Positions 2,549 through 48,531 of a stretch of 49,269 bases of DNA are shown one piece after another. This DNA is from an uncultured Prevotella sp. (GTDB taxonomy: Bacteria > Bacteroidota > Bacteroidia > Bacteroidales > Bacteroidaceae). Every line of letters begins with the position of its first letter. Within the stretch, counting starts at the first letter, position 1. The translations under genes and the position numbers were made by a program. Under the pieces are notes generated by a model. It saw nothing but the letters and a program-made list of their open reading frames with translations, made no database searches and was not told the DNA's origin. The DNA lies in the NCBI GenBank assembly GCA_945787895.1, contig CALZJQ010000006.1:1-49269 (forward strand), given 5' to 3'.

Positions 2549-3364
2549 ATGAAGACAAGAAGTATCAGATTTGCAATACTCTTTTTTCTCCTTACACTGA
2601 CATTCCCTGCCGTGGCTCAGACTATTGTCCACCCATGGCAAGGAAAGAAAGTGGCATACTTCGGCGACTCCATCACTGACCCGAGGAACAAGGCTGGAAA
2701 GAAAAAGTACTGGGGACTGCTGCAGGAATGGCTCGGCATGACACCCTATGTCTATGCTGTAAGCGGAAGACAATGGGACGACATACCGCGGCAAGCTGAG
2801 AAATGCCATGCAGATCATGGCGACTCCATCGACGCTGTTATCATTTTCATCGGCACAAACGACTACAACAATGGAGTGAAGCTTGGGGAATGGTACTATG
2901 AAAAGGAAGAAAAGGTGATGTATGGTCATGGAAAACCCAAGGAAATGGTAAAGAGGATGCGGAGATACCCTTGTATGGATAAGGACACATATCGGGGAAG
3001 AATCAACATCGCCCTTGACAAGGTGAAGAAGATGTATCCGGAAAAACAGATTGTTCTGCTCACTCCCATTCACAGGCAGAACTTCCATGCCAATGAGAAA
3101 AATTGGCAATGCTCAGAGGATTACACGAACCAGTGCGGGGAATATATTGACGAATATGTAGAATCCGTGAAAGAGGCGGGCAATATCTGGGCAGTACCAG
3201 TCATTGATCTCAATGCTATCTGCGGACTCTTTCCGATTATTGATGAGCATGCAGGCTATTTCAACAATGCGGAGACTGACCGTCTTCATCCCAACGACAG
3301 CGGACACAGGCGTATTGCGAGAACGCTCATGTATCAGTTGCTGACGCTTCCATGTACGTTTTGA
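2549..3364 (+). CDS. Secreted SGNH/GDSL-family hydrolase
   Basis: Exported esterase or lipase-like protein of 271 residues. A signal peptide covers about residues 1-24 (hydrophobic core, then AVAQ). The SGNH blocks are visible: block I FGDSITD with S41, block III GTNDYNNG with N104, and block V DRLHPND with D244 and H247 completing the catalytic triad. Bacteroidota members often remove acetyl groups from polysaccharides, but the substrate cannot be read from the sequence. It begins 56 bases after the flavodiiron stop and is followed by a clear intrinsic terminator at 3516-3546. The unusual insertion after block III, rich in Lys and Glu (about residues 110-150), is not a standard part of the fold. 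Confidence 0.9.
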   Translation: MKTRSIRFAILFFLLTLTFPAVAQTIVHPWQGKKVAYFGDSITDPRNKAGKKKYWGLLQEWLGMTPYVYAVSGRQWDDIPRQAEKCHADHGDSIDAVIIFIGTNDYNNGVKLGEWYYEKEEKVMYGHGKPKEMVKRMRRYPCMDKDTYRGRINIALDKVKKMYPEKQIVLLTPIHRQNFHANEKNWQCSEDYTNQCGEYIDEYVESVKEAGNIWAVPVIDLNAICGLFPIIDEHAGYFNNAETDRLHPNDSGHRRIARTLMYQLLTLPCTF

Positions 3365-10395: not shown

Positions 10396-11733
10396 ATGAA
10401 CAACGATATAAACTTGAAAAAGCAGTTGAATAGACTTGTAATGCCTATTCTTGTCGAGACTTTGCTCACATTCATGCTCGGAGGCATTGATACTTTCATG
10501 CTCAGCCAGCATAGTGACAATGCCGTGGCTGCAGTGGGTATGGACAACCAGATACTGCAACTTGTATTTCTTCTCTTTACCATTATCAATGCCGGAACGT
10601 CCGTGCTTTGTTCCCAATATTTCGGAGCAAGGCTCCACGACCGCTTCGTGGCTGTCAGCGGTGTGGCTCTGCTGATGAATGTCGCTATGGGACTTGCGAC
10701 AAGCCTTGCCCTCGTCTGTTATGCAGGACCTGTCCTGCGCTTCATGGGATTGCGTCCGGAATTGATGTCTGACGGCATTCCATATCTGAGGATAGTCGGT
10801 GGGTTTGCTTTTGCACAGGCTGTCACGACAACGGTAAGTGCCATACTGCGCAGCGCAAACAAGCCTGTCTATCCGATGATAGTAATAGCAGTAGTGAACG
10901 TCCTGAACATCATCGGCAACTATACCCTTATCTTCGGAAAATGCGGAATGCCGGCTCTCGGAGCTGAGGGCGCAGCCATCTCCACGAGTATTTCGCGTGT
11001 AGTGTCGATGCTGATGCTCATATTGATGCTGCAAAGGAAGCAGATACGTAGTTTCCCGTTGCGCCTCTTCCGTCCCTTCCCTTATTCCGAGATGCGCAGA
11101 CTGCTGAAGATAGGACTGCCTTCTGCCGGAGAAAACATATCATACAACTTGCAGCAGCTCGTCCTCATGTTTTTTATCAACATGATAGGCAATGAGGCTC
11201 TGACGGCACGCATCTACGTGGGAAACATCGTCATGTTCGTCTATCTCTATGCCATCTGCATTGCGCAGGGAAACAGTATCATGGTAGGCAACCTCACCGG
11301 GATGGACAAGAACAATGCCTCTTACATCGTAGGCAAGCTCTCGTGGCACCGGGGAGCAATGGTAAGTATGTTCTTCTCGGTAATATGTGCACTCTGTGGC
11401 CCATACATTGCAGACATCCTTACCGACAATGAGGAGATAGCGGTATTGGTATGCAGTTGTTTCTGGGTCGATGTGCTGCTTGAGATAGGAAAGTGTATCA
11501 ATATATGGGCGACAAATACCCTGCGTGCAACAGGTGACATCTTTTTCCCTTTCTATCTCGGCATTGTTGTACAATGGATAGTCGGGGTAGGATGCGGCTA
11601 TCTTTTTGGTATAGTCTTCGGTTTTGGGCTCATAGGAATGTGGTTTGCCTTTGCCCTTGATGAGAACATCCGGGGCTTGGTCTTCGTGCAGAGGTGGAAC
11701 AGCATGAAATGGGTAGGCCGCGGATTCAAGTGA
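10396..11733 (+). CDS. MATE-family efflux transporter
   Basis: Cation-coupled multidrug or metabolite exporter of the inner membrane, 445 residues with about twelve hydrophobic segments arranged as two six-helix halves. The family start is seen in LKKQLNRLVMPILVETLLTFMLGGIDTFMLS and the second half opens with MRRLLKIGLPSAGENISYN, the usual repeat of the first motif. The ATG at 10396 lies 79 bases after a candidate -7 box. It is the last + gene before a convergent lipoprotein gene. Its end is followed by a long non-coding stretch with repeats. Substrate unknown. Confidence 0.93.
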   Translation: MNNDINLKKQLNRLVMPILVETLLTFMLGGIDTFMLSQHSDNAVAAVGMDNQILQLVFLLFTIINAGTSVLCSQYFGARLHDRFVAVSGVALLMNVAMGLATSLALVCYAGPVLRFMGLRPELMSDGIPYLRIVGGFAFAQAVTTTVSAILRSANKPVYPMIVIAVVNVLNIIGNYTLIFGKCGMPALGAEGAAISTSISRVVSMLMLILMLQRKQIRSFPLRLFRPFPYSEMRRLLKIGLPSAGENISYNLQQLVLMFFINMIGNEALTARIYVGNIVMFVYLYAICIAQGNSIMVGNLTGMDKNNASYIVGKLSWHRGAMVSMFFSVICALCGPYIADILTDNEEIAVLVCSCFWVDVLLEIGKCINIWATNTLRATGDIFFPFYLGIVVQWIVGVGCGYLFGIVFGFGLIGMWFAFALDENIRGLVFVQRWNSMKWVGRGFK

Positions 11734-11798
11734 CGTAAGTTCGGGAAACGTTTCCGTTAAGCCAGATGAGCAATGATGAGCTTGCTCAACCATTGCCA

Positions 11799-11825
11799 TG
11801 GCGAGAAAAGGTCGGATGAAATCCA
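11799..11825 (+). repeat. 27-bp dispersed repeat, copy 1
   Basis: The 27 bases from 11799 (starting TGGCGAGAAAAGGTCGG) occur again, exactly, on the minus strand at 14831-14805. The 3' half contains GGATGAAATCC, a tiny hairpin with a GAA loop. Flanking sequence is not conserved beyond a few bases. Confidence 0.8.
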
Positions 11826-11959
11826 TCAATTTGACTCCATGCTCACACCTGTAACAGACTCTACCCTTGGTTTGAGATGCAGGCTCTACGGTAGTCAATT
11901 CTGCGAAATCATCCGCTCGCTCATGAGCGTTTGCTTTTGTGGCGGTCCATGTGTGGAGG

Positions 11960-12139
11960 ATAGGACAAAATGAATGTCGTTGATATTGCAGGACAATAGC
12001 GTTGAGATTGCAATGCAAAAGCGTTGAGATTGCCTGGTAAAAGCACGGCTTTTGCAGGGTAATCTCAACGCTTTTTGTATTTTGCTGATTGACAGTATGT
12101 TATGTATAGGATAAGAAGGTGGGGAGTATAGGACAAAAT
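11960..12139 (+). repeat. 180-bp structured repeat element, copy 1
   Basis: Bounded by direct repeats ATAGGACAAAAT at 11960-11971 and 12128-12139. Inside are GCGTTGAGATTGC units and a compound hairpin: outer stem 12017-12031 with 12061-12075 (15 bp, AAAAGCGTTGAGATT), 29-nt interior with CCTG/CAGG and AAAAGC/GCTTTT stems. A second copy with identical length and spacing is at 30968-31147 on the other strand. Confidence 0.85.
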
Positions 12140-12228
12140 GGACATTTGCTTTTCCCTTTCCCTATATCGCTCCGATGTTTCAGACAGAGATGGGAAAAGG
12201 GATGGGCTTGGGAAAACCGGGGGCTGAA

Positions 12229-12274
12229 AACAATTATTGCGGCTACCTGCTGCAAGGTAGCCGCAATGATTGTT
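12229..12274. terminator. Strong hairpin between convergent genes
   Basis: AACAATTATTGCGGCTACCT (12229-12248) pairs with 12255-12274 through 20 bp with one T-G wobble and a 6-base loop. It lies 35 bases past the stop of the minus-strand lipoprotein gene and could end transcription from both sides, although no T-run follows in either direction. Confidence 0.6.
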
Positions 12275-12309: not shown

Positions 12310-13341
12310 TTAGTGCTTGGCAGTAAGGGTGTTGACTCCAATGATTCTGCATGTCAGCCCACCTTCGATGTCGGTGTAGTCCTCATATATACGCATCTGT
12401 TTTCCTGCAAAGCGAACGGTACACTCTCCAAGCCAGTCGTAATCGTAGTCATATCCCTTGTTGTCTTCATAGTGCAGGATCCCTTGTGACTTGTCAGTCC
12501 AGTTCCACAGAGCCAGTTCTGTTTCTCCGTCAAGATATGAGACTATATATGTGCCGTAACTTGTAAAGACCACCTGATATGCCGCTTCGCTGTCCACATC
12601 AATGAAGTCATCCATCTCCAATTCTTCATCGAAATTAGGAGAAAACTTTATTTCTGTTTTTGCTTTGCCGTTGCTTATCGTCTGTTTGACATAGGCCATA
12701 TATGCGGAATTGACATATCCCCAGAATTCAATGCTGTTGATGTTCCACGTCCTGCATAGGCTGCGTGTGGCGTCATCGACTGTCTTCTCCGCAGTGTTGA
12801 CATAAACGGTAGATATGATGCCGTTGCGGTCGAGGTAACTGATGGTGGAGTTTGAACCTGTCTCTTCGATTATTTCCAGCACGGCTCCGCTGCTGAGCAC
12901 GTATTTGTTGTCGCCGCTCTTCGTATATGTGCCGTATTCGTTGCCTTTGCCGAATGATACCGTTTCATCTCCTGACCTTGTCGTTGCAGGCTTTATGGCA
13001 AGTCTGTTGCCGCGCTTGGCAATATTCAGCCTGTTTCCTGAAACAGCGACACTCACCTTTCCGCTCTTTGCAAAAAGACCTTTGTCTGCCATCATGAGGT
13101 AATGTCCGTCAGGAAGGAACTCTATAGACTGGAAGGGTGCATTGTCTTCACCTTGCGTAACGTACTTTACTGCACTTTCCGCATAGGGTTCATCATTAAG
13201 GCTGTTAGGAGAGAACTCTTTTGAAGGCAGTGCACCTTCTGGTATGGAGCCGCCATTGCCTTCGTTTTCATTGTCATCATCGCACGATACTGTCAGCAAT
13301 GTGAATGCTGTCAGGAACAAAAGGAAATGTTTGATTTTCAT
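12310..13341 (-). CDS. Hypothetical lipoprotein, probably surface exposed
   Basis: No family recognised. The 343-residue protein starts with a lipoprotein signal (hydrophobic core then TVSC, lipidated C20). The residues after the cysteine, DDDNENEG, are acidic like the lipoprotein export signal that directs Bacteroidota lipoproteins to the cell surface; that location is inference. The rest looks beta-rich: residues about 75-160 alternate short strands (VSVAVSGNRLNIAKRGNRLAIK), and a second part (about 190-343) contains LCRTWNINSIEFWGYVN and ends with strand-like segments. It could be a small surface binding or lipocalin-like protein. The gene is followed by a strong hairpin and preceded by a repeat element, so it is probably transcribed alone or as the end of the run starting at 14469. 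Confidence 0.85.
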   Translation of the reverse strand: MKIKHFLLFLTAFTLLTVSCDDDNENEGNGGSIPEGALPSKEFSPNSLNDEPYAESAVKYVTQGEDNAPFQSIEFLPDGHYLMMADKGLFAKSGKVSVAVSGNRLNIAKRGNRLAIKPATTRSGDETVSFGKGNEYGTYTKSGDNKYVLSSGAVLEIIEETGSNSTISYLDRNGIISTVYVNTAEKTVDDATRSLCRTWNINSIEFWGYVNSAYMAYVKQTISNGKAKTEIKFSPNFDEELEMDDFIDVDSEAAYQVVFTSYGTYIVSYLDGETELALWNWTDKSQGILHYEDNKGYDYDYDWLGECTVRFAGKQMRIYEDYTDIEGGLTCRIIGVNTLTAKH

Positions 13342-14555: not shown

Positions 14556-14961
14556 GGATGATGGGATTTTTTTGAAAAATAAGAAAGAAAAAAGGTCGCA
14601 CCAGTGATGTGATGAAAACTCCGAGTGAATATGTTTAGAGAGTCTCCCGTCTTTGTAATCCACCGGCATTGCTGCTTGCCCAATGTGATGTCACCCAAGG
14701 TGATTATGCCACTGAGCGTCATGGCCCGCCATTGACAAGGAAACTGTCTCGGTTTTCTGAAAATATTGATGAGTATCCCTATCGAACCGATGCGACCTGT
14801 ATGTTGGATTTCATCCGACCTTTTCTCGCCAAGCCAAGGTAATCAAACTCCCATTGGTCTTCTGGATTATCGAAAACGTTGGATTTCTTTTCTGCAATCG
14901 AAAATGCTAAACGCACTGCAAAATTACTATATTTCCCGTAAACTGCAAAAATATTGAACGG
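14556..14961. other. Non-coding gap of about 400 bp
   Basis: No gene with normal codon use is seen between the promoter at 14555 and the GH30 stop. The gap contains one copy of the 27-bp repeat at 14805-14831. Frames crossing the gap translate to short basic peptides that I do not recognise. It may be decayed sequence. Confidence 0.6.
14805..14831 (-). repeat. 27-bp dispersed repeat, copy 2
   Basis: Exact reverse-strand match to 11799-11825. Both copies lie in gene-free stretches about 3 kb apart and point in opposite directions. Confidence 0.8.
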
Positions 14962-28213: not shown

Positions 28214-29714
28214 TGTCACGGAAGTTCTTTTTGTATTTTCCTTCACGTCTTGCGTTTTTGCCGAACGACCTGCTGTCGCCTTTTCCCTCGCGTTTGCTGT
28301 ACTGTTTCTTTCCTCCACGATCCTCACGGTCGAAACGTTTACTGCTACGTTCGCTTTTGTCCTCTCGTGCGAAACGCTTGTGCTCAGTCTCGCGACGTTC
28401 TTCTTCGCGACGACGCTCTAAGGAGAGAAATTTGAATGAGCGAATGTCCTGCTCGCTGTTTTCCTCTTCTTCCCCGATACGCTTCTTAAACTCACGATTT
28501 TTGCGGAAACGATGCTTCTCGGCCATTTGCCGTTTCTCTTCTTCAGTCTTTACTATTCCGCCTTCAGCTCGAAAATCTTTGAAACTACCGTCGAAGAGAC
28601 AGTATTTGCGGAACTCACATTCTAAGGAACCGTTGTACAGAGGCACTTTCAGACTTGGCTTCAGTCGTATCTGCTCGAAGCATTCTTGTCGATAACTGAG
28701 AATCCATGCCTCGTTGTCCTTGAAATATTTCTTCAGCTTGTCGCCTATTGTCTTATAGAAAGCGAGGAGGTTTGGTGTGGAGATACGTTCACCATAGGGT
28801 GGGTTGGTCACCATGACAGCCTTGCCTTTATGTCCTTGAAAGTCGTTGAAATCCGCCTGCTCGATGGAGATGTATTTTGCAAGCCCTGCAGCACGCACGT
28901 TGAGCGCAGCGGTGTTGACAGCTTTCATGTCAATGTCGTAGCCGTATATCTGATGCTCAAACTCGCGTTCCTTGGAGTCATCGTTGTATATTTCGTCAAA
29001 GAGGTCGGCATCAAAGTCTGCCCATTTCTCAAAGGCAAACTCTTTGCGGAACACGCCCGGCGAAATGTTGCGGGCTATGAGCGCGGCCTCGATGGCAATG
29101 GTGCCCGACCCGCACATCGGGTCAATGAGGTCGCATTCTCCCTTCCATCCTGTCATGAGTATCATTCCTGCCGCAAGGACCTCGTTGAGAGGAGCTTCCA
29201 CGCTTTCCTGGCGATACCCCCTGCGGTGCAGGGACTCTCCGCTTGAGTCGAGGGACACCGTGGCTTCCCCCTCGGAAATGTGGACGTTGATGCGCAGGTC
29301 GGGATTGGCTACGGAGATGTTGGGGCGGTTGCCTGTTTTCTCACGGAATTGATCCACGATGGCATCCTTTACCTTGTACGTGACAAAACGGGAGTTGCGG
29401 AAATCATCCGAATATACTACAGAATCGACGGAGAACGTCTTTCCTTCGCCTATATACTGGCTCCAGTCTATCTTCTGCACCTCATCATACACCTCTTCGG
29501 CAGATGTTGCGGTGAAGGTGTAAATTGGTTTGAGGATGCGTATCGCTGTGTGCAGCTGGAAATTGGCACGATACATCATCTCCTTGTCTCCGGTAAAGCT
29601 CACCATGCGGCGACCTTTCTCTACATTATTGGCACCAAGTTCGATAAGTTCTGTCGCCAATACATCTTCAAGACCCATGAAAGTCTTGGCTATCATTCTA
29701 AATTCCATATCCAT
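28200..29714 (-). CDS. THUMP-domain 23S rRNA guanine-N2 methyltransferase (RlmL-type)
   Basis: SAM-dependent RNA methyltransferase of 504 residues. An N-terminal ferredoxin-like and THUMP region (about 1-160, GLEDVLATELIELGANNVEKGRR in parts) is followed by a Rossmann methyltransferase domain with DPMCGSGTIAIEAAL and the catalytic NPPYGER motif. It corresponds to the N-terminal enzyme of E. coli RlmKL, which makes m2G in 23S rRNA. The last 110 residues are a low-complexity tail of Arg, Lys, Glu and Asp, probably disordered and RNA-binding; this is longer than in most homologues. Starts at 29714, 29708 or 29696 are possible; all lie at or just after the stop of the serine acetyltransferase gene, so translation is coupled. 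Confidence 0.92.
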   Translation of the reverse strand: MDMEFRMIAKTFMGLEDVLATELIELGANNVEKGRRMVSFTGDKEMMYRANFQLHTAIRILKPIYTFTATSAEEVYDEVQKIDWSQYIGEGKTFSVDSVVYSDDFRNSRFVTYKVKDAIVDQFREKTGNRPNISVANPDLRINVHISEGEATVSLDSSGESLHRRGYRQESVEAPLNEVLAAGMILMTGWKGECDLIDPMCGSGTIAIEAALIARNISPGVFRKEFAFEKWADFDADLFDEIYNDDSKEREFEHQIYGYDIDMKAVNTAALNVRAAGLAKYISIEQADFNDFQGHKGKAVMVTNPPYGERISTPNLLAFYKTIGDKLKKYFKDNEAWILSYRQECFEQIRLKPSLKVPLYNGSLECEFRKYCLFDGSFKDFRAEGGIVKTEEEKRQMAEKHRFRKNREFKKRIGEEEENSEQDIRSFKFLSLERRREEERRETEHKRFAREDKSERSSKRFDREDRGGKKQYSKREGKGDSRSFGKNARREGKYKKNFRDNDED

Positions 29715-30630
29715 TTATCAGTTCCTCCACTTTGATGTGGGAACCCTTATACAGTTTTGAGTTTGGTTTTACATTTTGTGTTACCCACACACTGGCTCCT
29801 ATCACAGAGTTTTTTCCTATGGTAATTCTTCCGAGTATGGTGGCGTTGCTATATACTATTACGTTGTCTTCGAGTATCGGATGACGGGGTATGCCCTTTA
29901 TTGGATTGCCATTAGCGTCGAGAGGAAACGACAATGCTCCGAGCGTCACACCTTGATACAGTTTTACGTTGTCACCAATGATACAGGTGGCACCGATGAC
30001 CACTCCCGTGCCGTGGTCGATGGTGAAATGATGTCCGATGGTAGCACCGGGGTGAATGTCGATGCCAGTCTCCGAGTGGGCCAGTTCGGTAATCATTCTT
30101 GGTATGAGAGGCACATCGAGAAGATGGAGTTCATGCGCCAGTCTGTAGTTTACCAATGCCTTTATGACGGGGTAGCACGATATTATTTCTCCGAAGTTGA
30201 TAGCCGCAGGGTCTCCGTTATAAGCCGCCTCCACGTCTGTGGCAAGCAGTTTTCTTAAATGCGGGAGGCGTGACACGATGTTATTGGTTATCACCTTTGC
30301 CTTCTCACGCCTTTCCTCCCTTGTCTGCATTCCCTCCTCGCTTTCGTCAGAGAAACAGAGACCTGCGAGCACCTGGTCGCAAAGCAGCTTGTGAAGTCTT
30401 TCTACGCCGACACCGATATGATAGGGCAGTGTACTTCTATTGATGGATGATTGTCCGTAATATCCAGGAAAGATTATTGTTCTTGCCAGTTGCACTATCT
30501 CTGACAGAGCTTCTCCCGAAGGAAGCGGGTTGCCCTCCTGATGCTGGTGGAACAATCCTTTTATCGACTCGTCGGTCGATAGTTCTTCTACCACTTCAGT
30601 CAGTGTCTGTGTTGTCTTTGTAGTTGCCAT
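29698..30630 (-). CDS. Serine O-acetyltransferase (CysE/EpsC-type)
   Basis: Makes O-acetylserine from serine and acetyl-CoA, the precursor for cysteine. The 310-residue protein has an N-terminal helical domain (about 1-180) and a left-handed beta-helix of hexapeptide repeats, with GIDIHPGATIGHHFTIDHGTGVVIGATC (read in parts: DIHPGATIG, HHFTIDHG, GVVIGATC), GDNVKLYQGVTLGA and RHPILEDNVIVYSNATILG. The catalytic His-Asp pair lies in IDHGTGVVIG and the helical domain. Length and the long N-terminal domain fit the EpsC-type enzymes of Bacteroidales. It heads the long minus-strand run, with a candidate -7 box 27 bases upstream. No cysK lies in the window. Confidence 0.93.
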   Translation of the reverse strand: MATTKTTQTLTEVVEELSTDESIKGLFHQHQEGNPLPSGEALSEIVQLARTIIFPGYYGQSSINRSTLPYHIGVGVERLHKLLCDQVLAGLCFSDESEEGMQTREERREKAKVITNNIVSRLPHLRKLLATDVEAAYNGDPAAINFGEIISCYPVIKALVNYRLAHELHLLDVPLIPRMITELAHSETGIDIHPGATIGHHFTIDHGTGVVIGATCIIGDNVKLYQGVTLGALSFPLDANGNPIKGIPRHPILEDNVIVYSNATILGRITIGKNSVIGASVWVTQNVKPNSKLYKGSHIKVEELINGYGI

Positions 30631-30664: not shown

Positions 30665-30967
30665 GTAAAAAAATATGAATGGAGAAAAGCAAACAGTGTG
30701 AAAAAATGTGTTTTTGCCCATAATAGGATAATTATCCATGTTGTCTATGACAAAACCATGCACTATTTCTCTAACTGAAAGTACTGGATAAACGCAATTC
30801 AGCAAGTCAGCCACCAATAGTTGGTCAATATGGAATACAGGTTGAAGATGATGAAAAATCTGCCGAAATAATGAGTTGTCCACATACTGGGATATATGCT
30901 TCGGATTAGTCTTTACGAAGCAATCTCTGCGTATTGTCGATGCCTCCGAAGTGATATGCCAATGATT

Positions 30968-31147
30968 ATTTTGTCCTATCCTCGCCTTTGGGTTTTCTTC
31001 TTTGTAATATGCTGTAAACCAATGTAATACCAAAAGCGTTGATATTGCATCGCAAAAGCATAGCTTTCGCATGGTAATATCAACGCTTTTACAATGCAAT
31101 ATCAACGCTATTACAGTGCAAAAGCGTTGATATTGTTTTTGTCCTAT
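30968..31147 (-). repeat. 180-bp structured repeat element, copy 2
   Basis: Bounded by TTTTGTCCTAT-type direct repeats at 30968-30979 and 31137-31147. Outer stem 31032-31046 with 31076-31090 (AAAAGCGTTGATATT, 15 bp), 29-nt interior. Read on the minus strand, length (180), stem offset (57 bases from the end) and interior length equal those of the copy at 11960-12139. The one stem difference, G in copy 1 and T here, is matched by C and A on the opposite arm. A further GCGTTGATATTG unit lies next to the right border. Confidence 0.85.
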
Positions 31148-31187: not shown

Positions 31188-31259
31188 ATTATCCCAAATC
31201 GGTCATTAGAGCACAAGAAGTTTTGAACTTTTGTGGTCTAATGACCGATTTGGGATAAT
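31188..31259. repeat. 23-bp perfect inverted repeat
   Basis: ATTATCCCAAATCGGTCATT at 31188 begins a 23-base arm whose exact reverse complement ends at 31259. The 26-base interior can extend the hairpin further (CACAA...TTGTG). It stands 40 bases after the second 180-bp element and about 240 bases before the next promoter. No T-run follows, so a terminator role is uncertain. Confidence 0.8.
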
Positions 31260-31547: not shown

Positions 31548-32273
31548 ATGAAATTTGCAATCATCGCAGCAGGAGAGGGCTCGCGACTCACACAAGAGGG
31601 AATAAAGGAACCGAAACCGCTTGTAAAGGTGAGAGGAGAAGGACTTGTTGACAGATTGCTCCGCATCTTCACAGATTGTGGTGCATCCGAAATAGTTGTC
31701 ATCTGCAATAATCTCACGCCTTATGTCAGTGAGCATCTCTCCGATATAGAACAACACGGACTTGAAGGTAGAAAGATTCCGCTGCGTCATATCGTAAAGA
31801 CTACTCCAAGCTCTATGCACAGTTTTTACGAATTGTCCCCTCTCCTGGGAAACGAACCATTTGTCATGACAACGGTAGATACAATATTTCGTGAGGAGGA
31901 GTTCAGGGATTATATTCAGTGTTTTGCTACTTCACTGGCTAATGGAACGGCGGAGGGAATGATGGGAGTGACAGATTACATAGACGACGAAAAGCCTTTG
32001 TATGTCCGCACTGATGCTCAGAACAGGATAACGGGTTTCCTTGACACAGATACAGCGCACGAATGCAAATATATCTCTGGTGGTATTTATGGTCTTTCTG
32101 CATCTGCTATTGATACACTGCGACGCTGCATGGAGAGTGGGCAGAGTCGTATGCGTAACTTCCAGCGCGGACTTATTGACGATGGCAGAGAGCTTCTTGC
32201 ATACCCTTTTACCAAAGTCCTTGATATCGACCATGCCTCAGATATAGCAAAGGCTGAGGAATTGATGGGATGA
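31548..32273 (+). CDS. Nucleotidyltransferase-family protein (NTP_transferase)
   Basis: Cytoplasmic enzyme expected to couple a nucleoside triphosphate to a sugar phosphate or similar, 241 residues. The N-terminal Rossmann motif MKFAIIAAGEGSRLTQEG with the later KEPKPLVKV segment is the pyrophosphorylase signature (G-x-G-x-R and P-K-P). TTVDTIFREEEF supplies the metal-binding aspartate. It ends after the catalytic domain, without the left-handed helix found in GlmU. The exact substrate is not decidable. It begins a three-gene run with an ATP-grasp protein and an outer-membrane DUF5686 protein, which suggests synthesis and attachment of an unknown small molecule. Confidence 0.88.
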   Translation: MKFAIIAAGEGSRLTQEGIKEPKPLVKVRGEGLVDRLLRIFTDCGASEIVVICNNLTPYVSEHLSDIEQHGLEGRKIPLRHIVKTTPSSMHSFYELSPLLGNEPFVMTTVDTIFREEEFRDYIQCFATSLANGTAEGMMGVTDYIDDEKPLYVRTDAQNRITGFLDTDTAHECKYISGGIYGLSASAIDTLRRCMESGQSRMRNFQRGLIDDGRELLAYPFTKVLDIDHASDIAKAEELMG

Positions 32274-48363: not shown

Positions 48364-48431
48364 GTCTTGCACGGAAATAACTTGACAACTTTTTGGCAAA
48401 AAAAGTTGTCAAGTTATTTCCGTGCAAGACA
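48363..48431. repeat. 32-bp perfect inverted repeat
   Basis: The arm 48363-48394 (starting TGTCTTGCACGG) is exactly reverse-complementary to 48400-48431, with a 5-base loop. Five bases later comes ATTTTGTCCTAT (48436-48447), the same motif that borders the 180-bp elements. It lies between the convergent GH43 and pseudouridine synthase genes and may act as a terminator for both, although it is much longer than usual. Confidence 0.85.
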
Positions 48432-48531
48432 ATTCATTTTGTCCTATAGCAACAACAAAAAAATGCAACAACAACAACTAAGAACCAAACGACCGGACCG
48501 TTTATCAGCGAAGCATGATTGAGGCGTGGTA

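Follow-up and report, generated by a model that had tools for sequence, protein, structure and literature searches.

The window, a stretch of 49,269 nucleotides from the draft genome of an uncultured Prevotella sp. (contig CALZJQ010000006.1), holds two copies of a structured intergenic repeat in opposite orientation, at the places given by an earlier, sequence-only reading: 11960-12139 on the plus strand and 30968-31147, read on the minus strand. Copy 1 occupies a convergent gap between a MatE-family ORF that ends at 11733 and a minus-strand ORF at 12310-13341, and copy 2 a divergent gap between ORFs at 29698-30630 (minus) and 31548-32273 (plus). The whole elements, including some 11 bases beyond the right border, extend over 11960-12149 and 30958-31147; the covariance model R1, which was built from 42 copies of this focal family alone, matches the former with 164.6 bits (E 8e-29, over 11960-12112) and the latter with 156.8 bits (E 2.3e-27, over 30995-31147). 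Near copy 2 lies a second long inverted repeat of unrelated sequence, with 23-bp arms at 31188-31210 and 31237-31259. At 48376-48447 (minus strand), the window carries a lone ATAGGACAAAATGAAT, with which many copies start, followed by a quite different long palindrome (R1 E 0.15); this is perhaps a chimaera in which a left border is joined to another hairpin. The sole Rfam pass within the window is RF01693 (Bacteroidales-1, a suggested 6S RNA), at 14588-14797 on the minus strand (125.4 bits).

A copy of ~190 bp consists of a left border, ATAGGACAAAA, five quasi-palindromic units of the form AAxxxC NNN GxxxTT with a period of 22 nt, a TTGATnnnnARnnnGTTAC-type tail, some 25 bases with little conservation, a second, direct ATAGGACAAAA, and about 11 further, more or less conserved bases. 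In copy 1 the left border, at about which the homology with sister copies begins, lies at 11960-11970, and the 15-nt quasi-palindromes of the 22-nt units lie at 11973-11987 (unit 1), 11995-12009 (unit 2), 12017-12031 (unit 3, the 5' arm of a 15-bp stem), 12039-12053 (unit 4, a self-complementary inner hairpin), and 12061-12075 (unit 5, the 3' arm); the tail follows at 12085-12104 and the right border with its additional bases at 12128-12149. Copy 2 shows the same succession on the minus strand: left border at 31137-31147, unit 1 at 31120-31134, unit 2 at 31098-31112, the 5' arm (unit 3) at 31076-31090, the inner hairpin (unit 4) at 31054-31068, the 3' arm (unit 5) at 31032-31046, tail at 31003-31022, and right border with the additional bases at 30958-30979. 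The hairpin offset of 57 bases, the 15-bp stem, and the interior of 29 bases reported earlier hold in both copies, as does the single change from G-C to T-A on both arms (alignment columns 69 and 105). The border motif had been drawn one base too long: both copies share the 11-mer, but they differ in the 12th base, with T in copy 1 and, at its left end, A in copy 2. Folded as DNA on their own strands, copies 1 and 2 lie 6.7 and 7.6 standard deviations, respectively, below the energies of dinucleotide shuffles.

The description of a two-copy element was mistaken, as the draft genome contains at least 59 copies, some of them partial. The border 11-mer is found at 114 places in the 2.76-Mb draft, versus 2 for the reversed control; among exact border pairs, which were sought only at distances of 140 to 170 bases, there are 46 in the genome and 0 in the control. 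Reading of the loci gave 47 copies with exact borders and 51 once variants of the left border were admitted. Together with 8 further copies recognized by the model (L010, L016, L023, L030, L034, L042, L052, and L057), these make up the minimum of 59; among the 8, L042 is cut by the start of its contig, L023 lacks the right border, and L052 is shortened internally. The absence of other copies, or of covariation, had been named as what would count against the element, and both tests came out for a real one: the former by the 46 border pairs, the latter by two-sided changes in the stem and the matching of its arms within copies (see below). In a wider collection of genome contigs, which may exclude the genome of the window, the scan for border pairs returned 20 stretches, mostly Bacillus-like or from Tetragenococcus. 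None of them held a convincing element (lowest R1 E value, 0.098), and the border is therefore not diagnostic by itself. Viral contigs contained no exact match of a focal-family core and one of a core from the related repeats described below, no plasmid was found with a focal copy as the query, and no phage was found with a related repeat as the query.

The distance from border to border is exactly 179 bp in 28 of the 51 copies. The left end is sharp. Among 23 pairs of closely similar copies (a minimum of 80% identity over a minimum of 150 bases, with L042 left out), 21 begin to be alike no more than 3 bases from the first base of the border. The right end is less clear, as likeness stops at the border in 6 pairs, stops 7 to 13 bases beyond it in 10, and extends further in 7, six of which come from a single subfamily (L038, L046, L065, and L070). 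Past the right border, 50 of 51 copies have T at position +7, and the information drops to 0.08 bits at +12. Three copies (L024, L026, and L033) start with GTAGG instead of ATAGG; this variant lies at the border of the element and not at the foot of a hairpin. Upstream of the full copy in L018 (minus strand, ~960-865), the apparent tail of a second copy is followed by three 20-bp tandem repeats and then by the left border at which the full copy begins, a head-to-tail arrangement in which the two share a border. In L070, a palindrome of ~118 nt (798-915) near the element copy has weak, sub-cut-off matches to many hairpin families.

Stem structure was analyzed in an alignment of 42 of the 51 focal copies, nine being left out for odd length or make-up. 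The swap seen in the window recurs in the family, with T-A in 26 copies and G-C in 12, and 97.1% of the cells of the stem formed by units 3 and 5 and of the unit 4 inner hairpin are paired. Two-sided changes in this stem affect four pairs (shuffled mean, 2.2; 26 of 500 shuffles as high) and 17 cells (shuffled mean, 5.9; 0 of 500 as high). The arms match slightly better within copies, at 14.38 of 15 positions, than between copies, at 13.93 (z = 6.0; 0 of 1,000 permutations as high); complementarity of the arms within a copy is an observed property of the family. Much of this stem needs no covariation: 39 copies pair units 3 and 5 at 13 or more of 15 positions, with 37.2 expected from pairing across copies, a small difference because the units themselves are conserved. 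Units 1 and 2 pair that well within 12 copies, against 4.6 expected. The claim that the extra units share the base of the stem within each copy survives as a tendency only, in that units 2 and 3 are directly more alike within than between copies (z = 4.5). Some pair of units forms a stem of at least 13 of 15 positions in 41 of the 42 copies.

The search with a covariance model that had been proposed as a check covered 120 genomes of the genus and had matches in 19, namely the window's own and 18 of the 119 others; among 198 genomes of the order, R1 matched its own genome and 0 of 197 others. These searches used stricter filters and examined at most 25 candidates per genome in the genus and at most 15 in the order. 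Among the genomes examined, the class is thus found only inside the genus. Outside the window's own genome, matches are most numerous in G108 and G017 (at least 25 each), G063 (17), G012 (12), and G021 (6), and R1 matches the repeats of G108 and G017 from its position 1 to 153 (best E 7e-10). The latter repeats are almost certainly PINSR of Prevotella intermedia and Prevotella nigrescens, an identification made from the description in passages of PMC4755523, as the published consensus is given there only in a figure. According to these passages, published in 2015, PINSR is a 188-bp intergenic sequence of unknown source and function that lacks terminal inverted repeats; two P. intermedia strains carry 177 and 184 copies, and its occurrence is limited to a single species group (intermedia/nigrescens). 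In the literature searched, the name PINSR was used with Prevotella only in PMC4755523, and the border 11-mer as a search term brought up only papers with titles on a frog, a rabies vaccine, and an alga. A G108 copy matches the P. nigrescens sequence NZ_CP082843.1 at 8 places, the best match (82.4% identity over 99% of the query) lying between two annotated convergent genes. In the same sequence, the annotated hypothetical protein WP_223381213.1 (L238, 3031-3444) overlaps a PINSR-type match at 3200-3351 and may not represent a real gene.

The PINSR-type repeats of G108 and G017 have ends of the form TTGTAAAGATAATT ... GAAAAATATTTACA, which by eye match each other imperfectly, at 11 of 14 positions, as an inverted pair, with 187 bases between the end motifs in 64 of 68 copies, 68 being the number measured out of 72. 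Among 32 aligned PINSR-type copies (of 40 fetched loci, with L133 and L134-L140 left out), 31 contain a stem between units at 13 or more of 15 positions, formed by units 2 and 4 in 20 copies, 2 and 3 in 9, 3 and 4 in 1, and 4 and 5 in 1; the within-copy excess is slight (37 of 1,000 permutations as high for units 2 and 4, 360 of 1,000 for units 2 and 3). Other genomes show further variants of this architecture. At four G063 loci (L134-L137), AAAAGCATAGCTTTT-like units recur every 22 nt and neither family's borders are present, and in two G021 loci (L138 and L139) an outer stem of quite different sequence still encloses an inner hairpin of the AAAGCAATGC type.

Comparison of orthologous PINSR-type copies revealed how the units change. 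Eight 7-nt cores (four when the strands are pooled) account for 192 of the 213 cores of units 2 to 4 in 71 copies. In nine orthologous pairs from G108 and G017, the 27 cores differ by 0 bases in 7 cases, 1 base in 9, 3 bases in 3, 4 bases in 7, and 5 bases in 1, and never by two bases; 9 of the 11 larger changes replace one of the eight words by another of the eight. Two units changed together at 4 of the 9 loci, and the two were mutually complementary afterwards in all four cases and beforehand in three. A stem of at least 12 of 15 positions is kept in both genomes at 9 of 9 loci, although the best-matching pair of units differs between the orthologues at 7 of 9. This small vocabulary of 7-nt cores, largely replaced as whole words between PINSR-type orthologues, is the new observation here. 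The vocabulary of the focal family is wider, with 55 cores in 210 units, of which the five commonest (strands pooled) cover 66%. Word swapping between orthologues is visible only in the PINSR-type genomes, as no focal-family relative close enough for such a comparison was found among the genomes searched. Of the two processes suggested by the sequence-only reading, selection for a folded form and its concerted copying, these whole-word swaps lend better support to the second.

Focal copies are over-represented between convergent genes, with no preferred orientation. Of the 34 copies that could be placed (17 of 51 could not), 19 lie between convergent genes, 14 between tandem genes (7 in each orientation), and 1 between divergent genes; background gaps called likewise, with a minimum length of 100 bp and taken from eight contigs (435 kb in all), comprise 19 convergent, 118 tandem, 22 divergent, and 1 unplaced (p = 1.4e-7). 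This background was first taken with slightly different ORF settings, and a repeat with matched settings agrees; the seven copies on these eight contigs are distributed as 2, 4, and 1. PINSR-type copies show the same trend, with 28 convergent, 31 tandem (15:16), and 13 divergent versus a background of 42, 111, and 58, respectively (p = 0.002). That set comprises 72 of 146 R1 rows, one per place and with E values of up to ~3e-4; since orthologous copies of G108 and G017 are both counted, its members are not independent. The bias is weaker in these 72 matches than in a smaller earlier set of 28 elements (15 convergent, 11 tandem, 2 divergent), and the results of a looser detector (95 elements; 31, 42, and 18 gaps) were superseded as too loose. 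As the gene calls come from a simple ORF script, individual assignments of context may be wrong.

Intrinsic curvature, considered as a common property of the class, holds for the PINSR-type arrays and is not specific in the focal family. In a wedge model, all 72 PINSR-type arrays are predicted to be curved more strongly than the mean of their own dinucleotide shuffles, 52 of 71 surpass at least 95% of the permutations that keep their period, and the family mean is reached by 0 of 150 shared permutations (30 of the 71 copies used). Predicted curvature of the focal arrays is above shuffles in 50 of 51, yet 0 of 49 exceed their period-keeping permutations, and 28 of 150 permutations are as high as the family mean (30 of the 49 copies used).

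On balance, these repeats probably form a class of interspersed, non-coding intergenic sequences, with PINSR almost certainly among them, that provide a hairpin-capable site at the DNA level near the 3' ends of genes. Recombination, through gene conversion and strand switching on the hairpin, would copy words from unit to unit and from copy to copy, which would change both arms together. Past spread may have been helped by a putative enzyme acting in trans, and the copies would now mostly stay put or vanish by deletion, persisting near gene 3' ends. The function that we infer is that of an orientation-independent structural site, most likely acting as DNA, capable of forming hairpins or cruciforms and with a dyad every 11 bp, in a mode that would resemble REP/BIME sequences rather than an RNA gene. 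Several results weigh against this reading: much of the focal stem needs no covariation, the within-copy excess is slight in PINSR-type copies, orthologous elements are barely better conserved than their flanks, purging of insertions near promoters would give the convergent bias as well, copy 2 of the window has divergent neighbours, and the curvature of the focal arrays is not specific.

The most serious alternative, possible though distinctly less probable, is that the element is an inert, decayed miniature transposon, inserted once in the past by a putative transposase, surviving where it did no harm, and now subject to drift and recombination. The sharp left end shared by sister copies is what such an origin would leave, and the excess in convergent gaps fits a purging of insertions near promoters. 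The left flank of copy 1 (11747-11961), which recurs in other genomes of the genus, is presumably the start of an IS1380-type insertion sequence, and it ends no more than two bases from the border. The stretches fetched from G108 contain 43 elements, 16 in blocks bridging to G017 and 27 outside them; of the 16, 9 are present in both genomes, 1 has a weak match in G017 (L202 4845-4996 in G108 versus the orthologous place L211 8420-8560; E 0.0064), and 6 have no match. No clean empty site between G108 and G017 was found among the six aligned loci, which show ragged losses, remnants, and replaced stretches. Over the nine orthologous pairs, identity is 0.845 in the element versus 0.826 and 0.836 in the flanks, a difference so small that identity does not demonstrate purifying selection; six locus pairs chosen for having the element in both genomes (seven alignments of six distinct loci) had looked better, with 0.77-0.91 versus 0.53-0.89.

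Compared by eye, the left end ATAGGACAAAAT does not match the reverse complement of the right end (GCnAATG...), and flank matches at the two sides of the 51 copies show no excess indicative of a target site duplication (TSD) at offsets of 0 to 29 and lengths of 3 to 12, although old insertions could have lost it. No border pair at a transposase-sized distance was seen among 100 of the 114 border places in this assembly, which is 88.85% complete. Neither a mobilising enzyme nor a TSD nor a clean empty site was found in these searches, which counts against the preferred reading. Plain decay would not be expected to leave the rigid length of the PINSR-type copies, which speaks for constraint or for resetting by conversion, or near-invariant borders beside ~25 poorly conserved bases, unless gene conversion resets the copies.

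A bidirectional terminator array, in which units with an A-tract, a GC core, and a T-tract end the transcripts of both convergent genes, is unlikely, despite the T-runs that follow the stem in focal-family hairpins, the location at gene ends, the even orientation, and one weak terminator-like match inside copy 2, at 31114-31129. Gaps that hold the element are not short of other terminator-like hairpins: such hairpins are present outside the element at 36 of 56 convergent gene ends with it and 41 of 84 without it, and at 13 of 31 versus 26 of 111 tandem ones, so that a terminator role is not favoured. The gap of copy 1 contains a separate strong terminator-like site at 12229-12274. As the scan admitted loops of up to 8, it excluded the 15-bp stem, the absence of which from the calls is therefore uninformative.

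Still less probable is a structured small RNA, or a family of mRNA leaders or trailers, selected for a single fold. The two-sided changes in the stem of units 3 and 5 would be expected of it, and on the plus strand G-U pairs exceed A-C pairs (22:9 and 39:12), an excess that is carried by few columns and gives a hint of pairing at the RNA level. Against such an RNA, the units that pair best vary between copies and between orthologues, orientation to the neighbouring genes is even in both families, and seven element loci (2 focal, 5 related) had nothing above the Rfam cut-off. The earlier suggestion of a small RNA gene is therefore not supported.

The other suggestion, of a REP-like sequence or a MITE, captured the life-style of the element and not the defining features: no terminal inverted repeat (TIR) was seen, no TSD was found, no GTAG or CGTC tag of REPs was seen at the units of the focal element, and no RAYT is associated with it. 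Overall, the observation made in the sequence-only reading is confirmed and its interpretation partly supported. Y1_Tnp (PF01797) had no match in G108 (two contigs, 99% complete), G017, G063, G012, or G021; among 10 examined of the other genomes that match the element, four (G085, G089, G115, and G010) have such a gene, each with no more than 5 element matches. The window's own genome encodes one weak RAYT-like protein, C69 (22 bits; cut-off, 23), with homologues in 70 of 120 genomes of the genus, including G021 and not G108, G017, G063, or G012. A RAYT or IS200 partner, tested in this way, showed no association with high element copy number. A RAYT-like gene encoding 325 aa, at L080 94-1071, has its own short palindromic repeats downstream (1076-1260), which are unlike the element. 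Movement by a RAYT or Y1 HUH transposase, in the manner of REP/REPIN or IS200-like elements, is very improbable. The lack of a visible TIR, the internal hairpins, the intergenic position, C69, and the four Y1 genes might be cited for it; against it, the five other genomes richest in matches lack Y1_Tnp, and four of these lack a C69 homologue.

A more far-reaching version of the preferred reading, that of a DNA-level site near gene 3' ends, is offered tentatively: a few complementary 7-bp words, interchangeable with one another and held in a fixed 22-bp frame, might carry the information of the element class. Through the exchange of words between copies, in some cases as complementary pairs, the sequence and the pairing partners would change and the dyads and their spacing would not. 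This would mark a DNA site, scattered across the genus near gene 3' ends, that is recognized by its shape or by a putative dyad-binding chromosomal protein. The present analysis places PINSR in a wider genus-level class that includes a second family with other ends, and describes its modular anatomy. It also poses a testable question, namely, whether compensatory change in bacterial palindromic repeats reflects structural selection or copying between arms, and carries a warning for RNA motif searches, since covariation alone can arise from concerted copying in DNA repeats. Passages of a metagenomic RNA screen mention palindromic Bacteroidetes candidates (PMC8040213).

Among the known systems, REP, BIME, and REPIN sequences are likewise intergenic palindromic repeats present in many copies, often as composite arrays, and according to the parts of PMC3733652 and PMC1525189 cited here, REPs are found mainly between tandem and convergent genes. 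As described there, REPs measure 20-40 bp, most carry a GTAG or CGTC tag, and the GTAG types are linked to RAYTs; in contrast, the focal element is 190 bp long, contains five phased 22-nt units, and has no RAYT association. The BrickBuilt MITE of Porphyromonas gingivalis, another Bacteroidales genus, is also intergenic and built of repeats, and its leader and tail are unlike each other, as in the focal element (passages of PMC4596501). BrickBuilt, however, contains 1 to 22.8 direct 23-nt tandem repeats (AGAYCATARTATCCTCTCRTRTG) and IS5-type TIRs, whereas the units of the focal element, about five in number, are 22-nt quasi-palindromes with a different sequence, and no TIR was seen; the 23-nt consensus in these passages differs by eye from the focal units. 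The closest relative is PINSR, which, as described in PMC4755523, resembles the focal element in its length (here about 188-190 bp), intergenic position, lack of coding capacity, and high copy number, and the PINSR-type copies share with it the same five 22-nt units and the TTGAT...GTTAC tail. The focal family differs in its other unit cores, weaker predicted curvature, lower copy number (at least 59, versus the 177 and 184 in print), and ends, which are ATAGGACAAAA twice in direct orientation instead of TTGTAAAGATAATT ... GAAAAATATTTACA; the PINSR end sequences are absent from the focal copies, which begin with ATAGGACAAAA and end past the second ATAGGACAAAA. The element is thus known as an interspersed repeat of the PINSR class, REP-like in position, and is new in its ends and in the modular, word-swapping change seen in its relatives.
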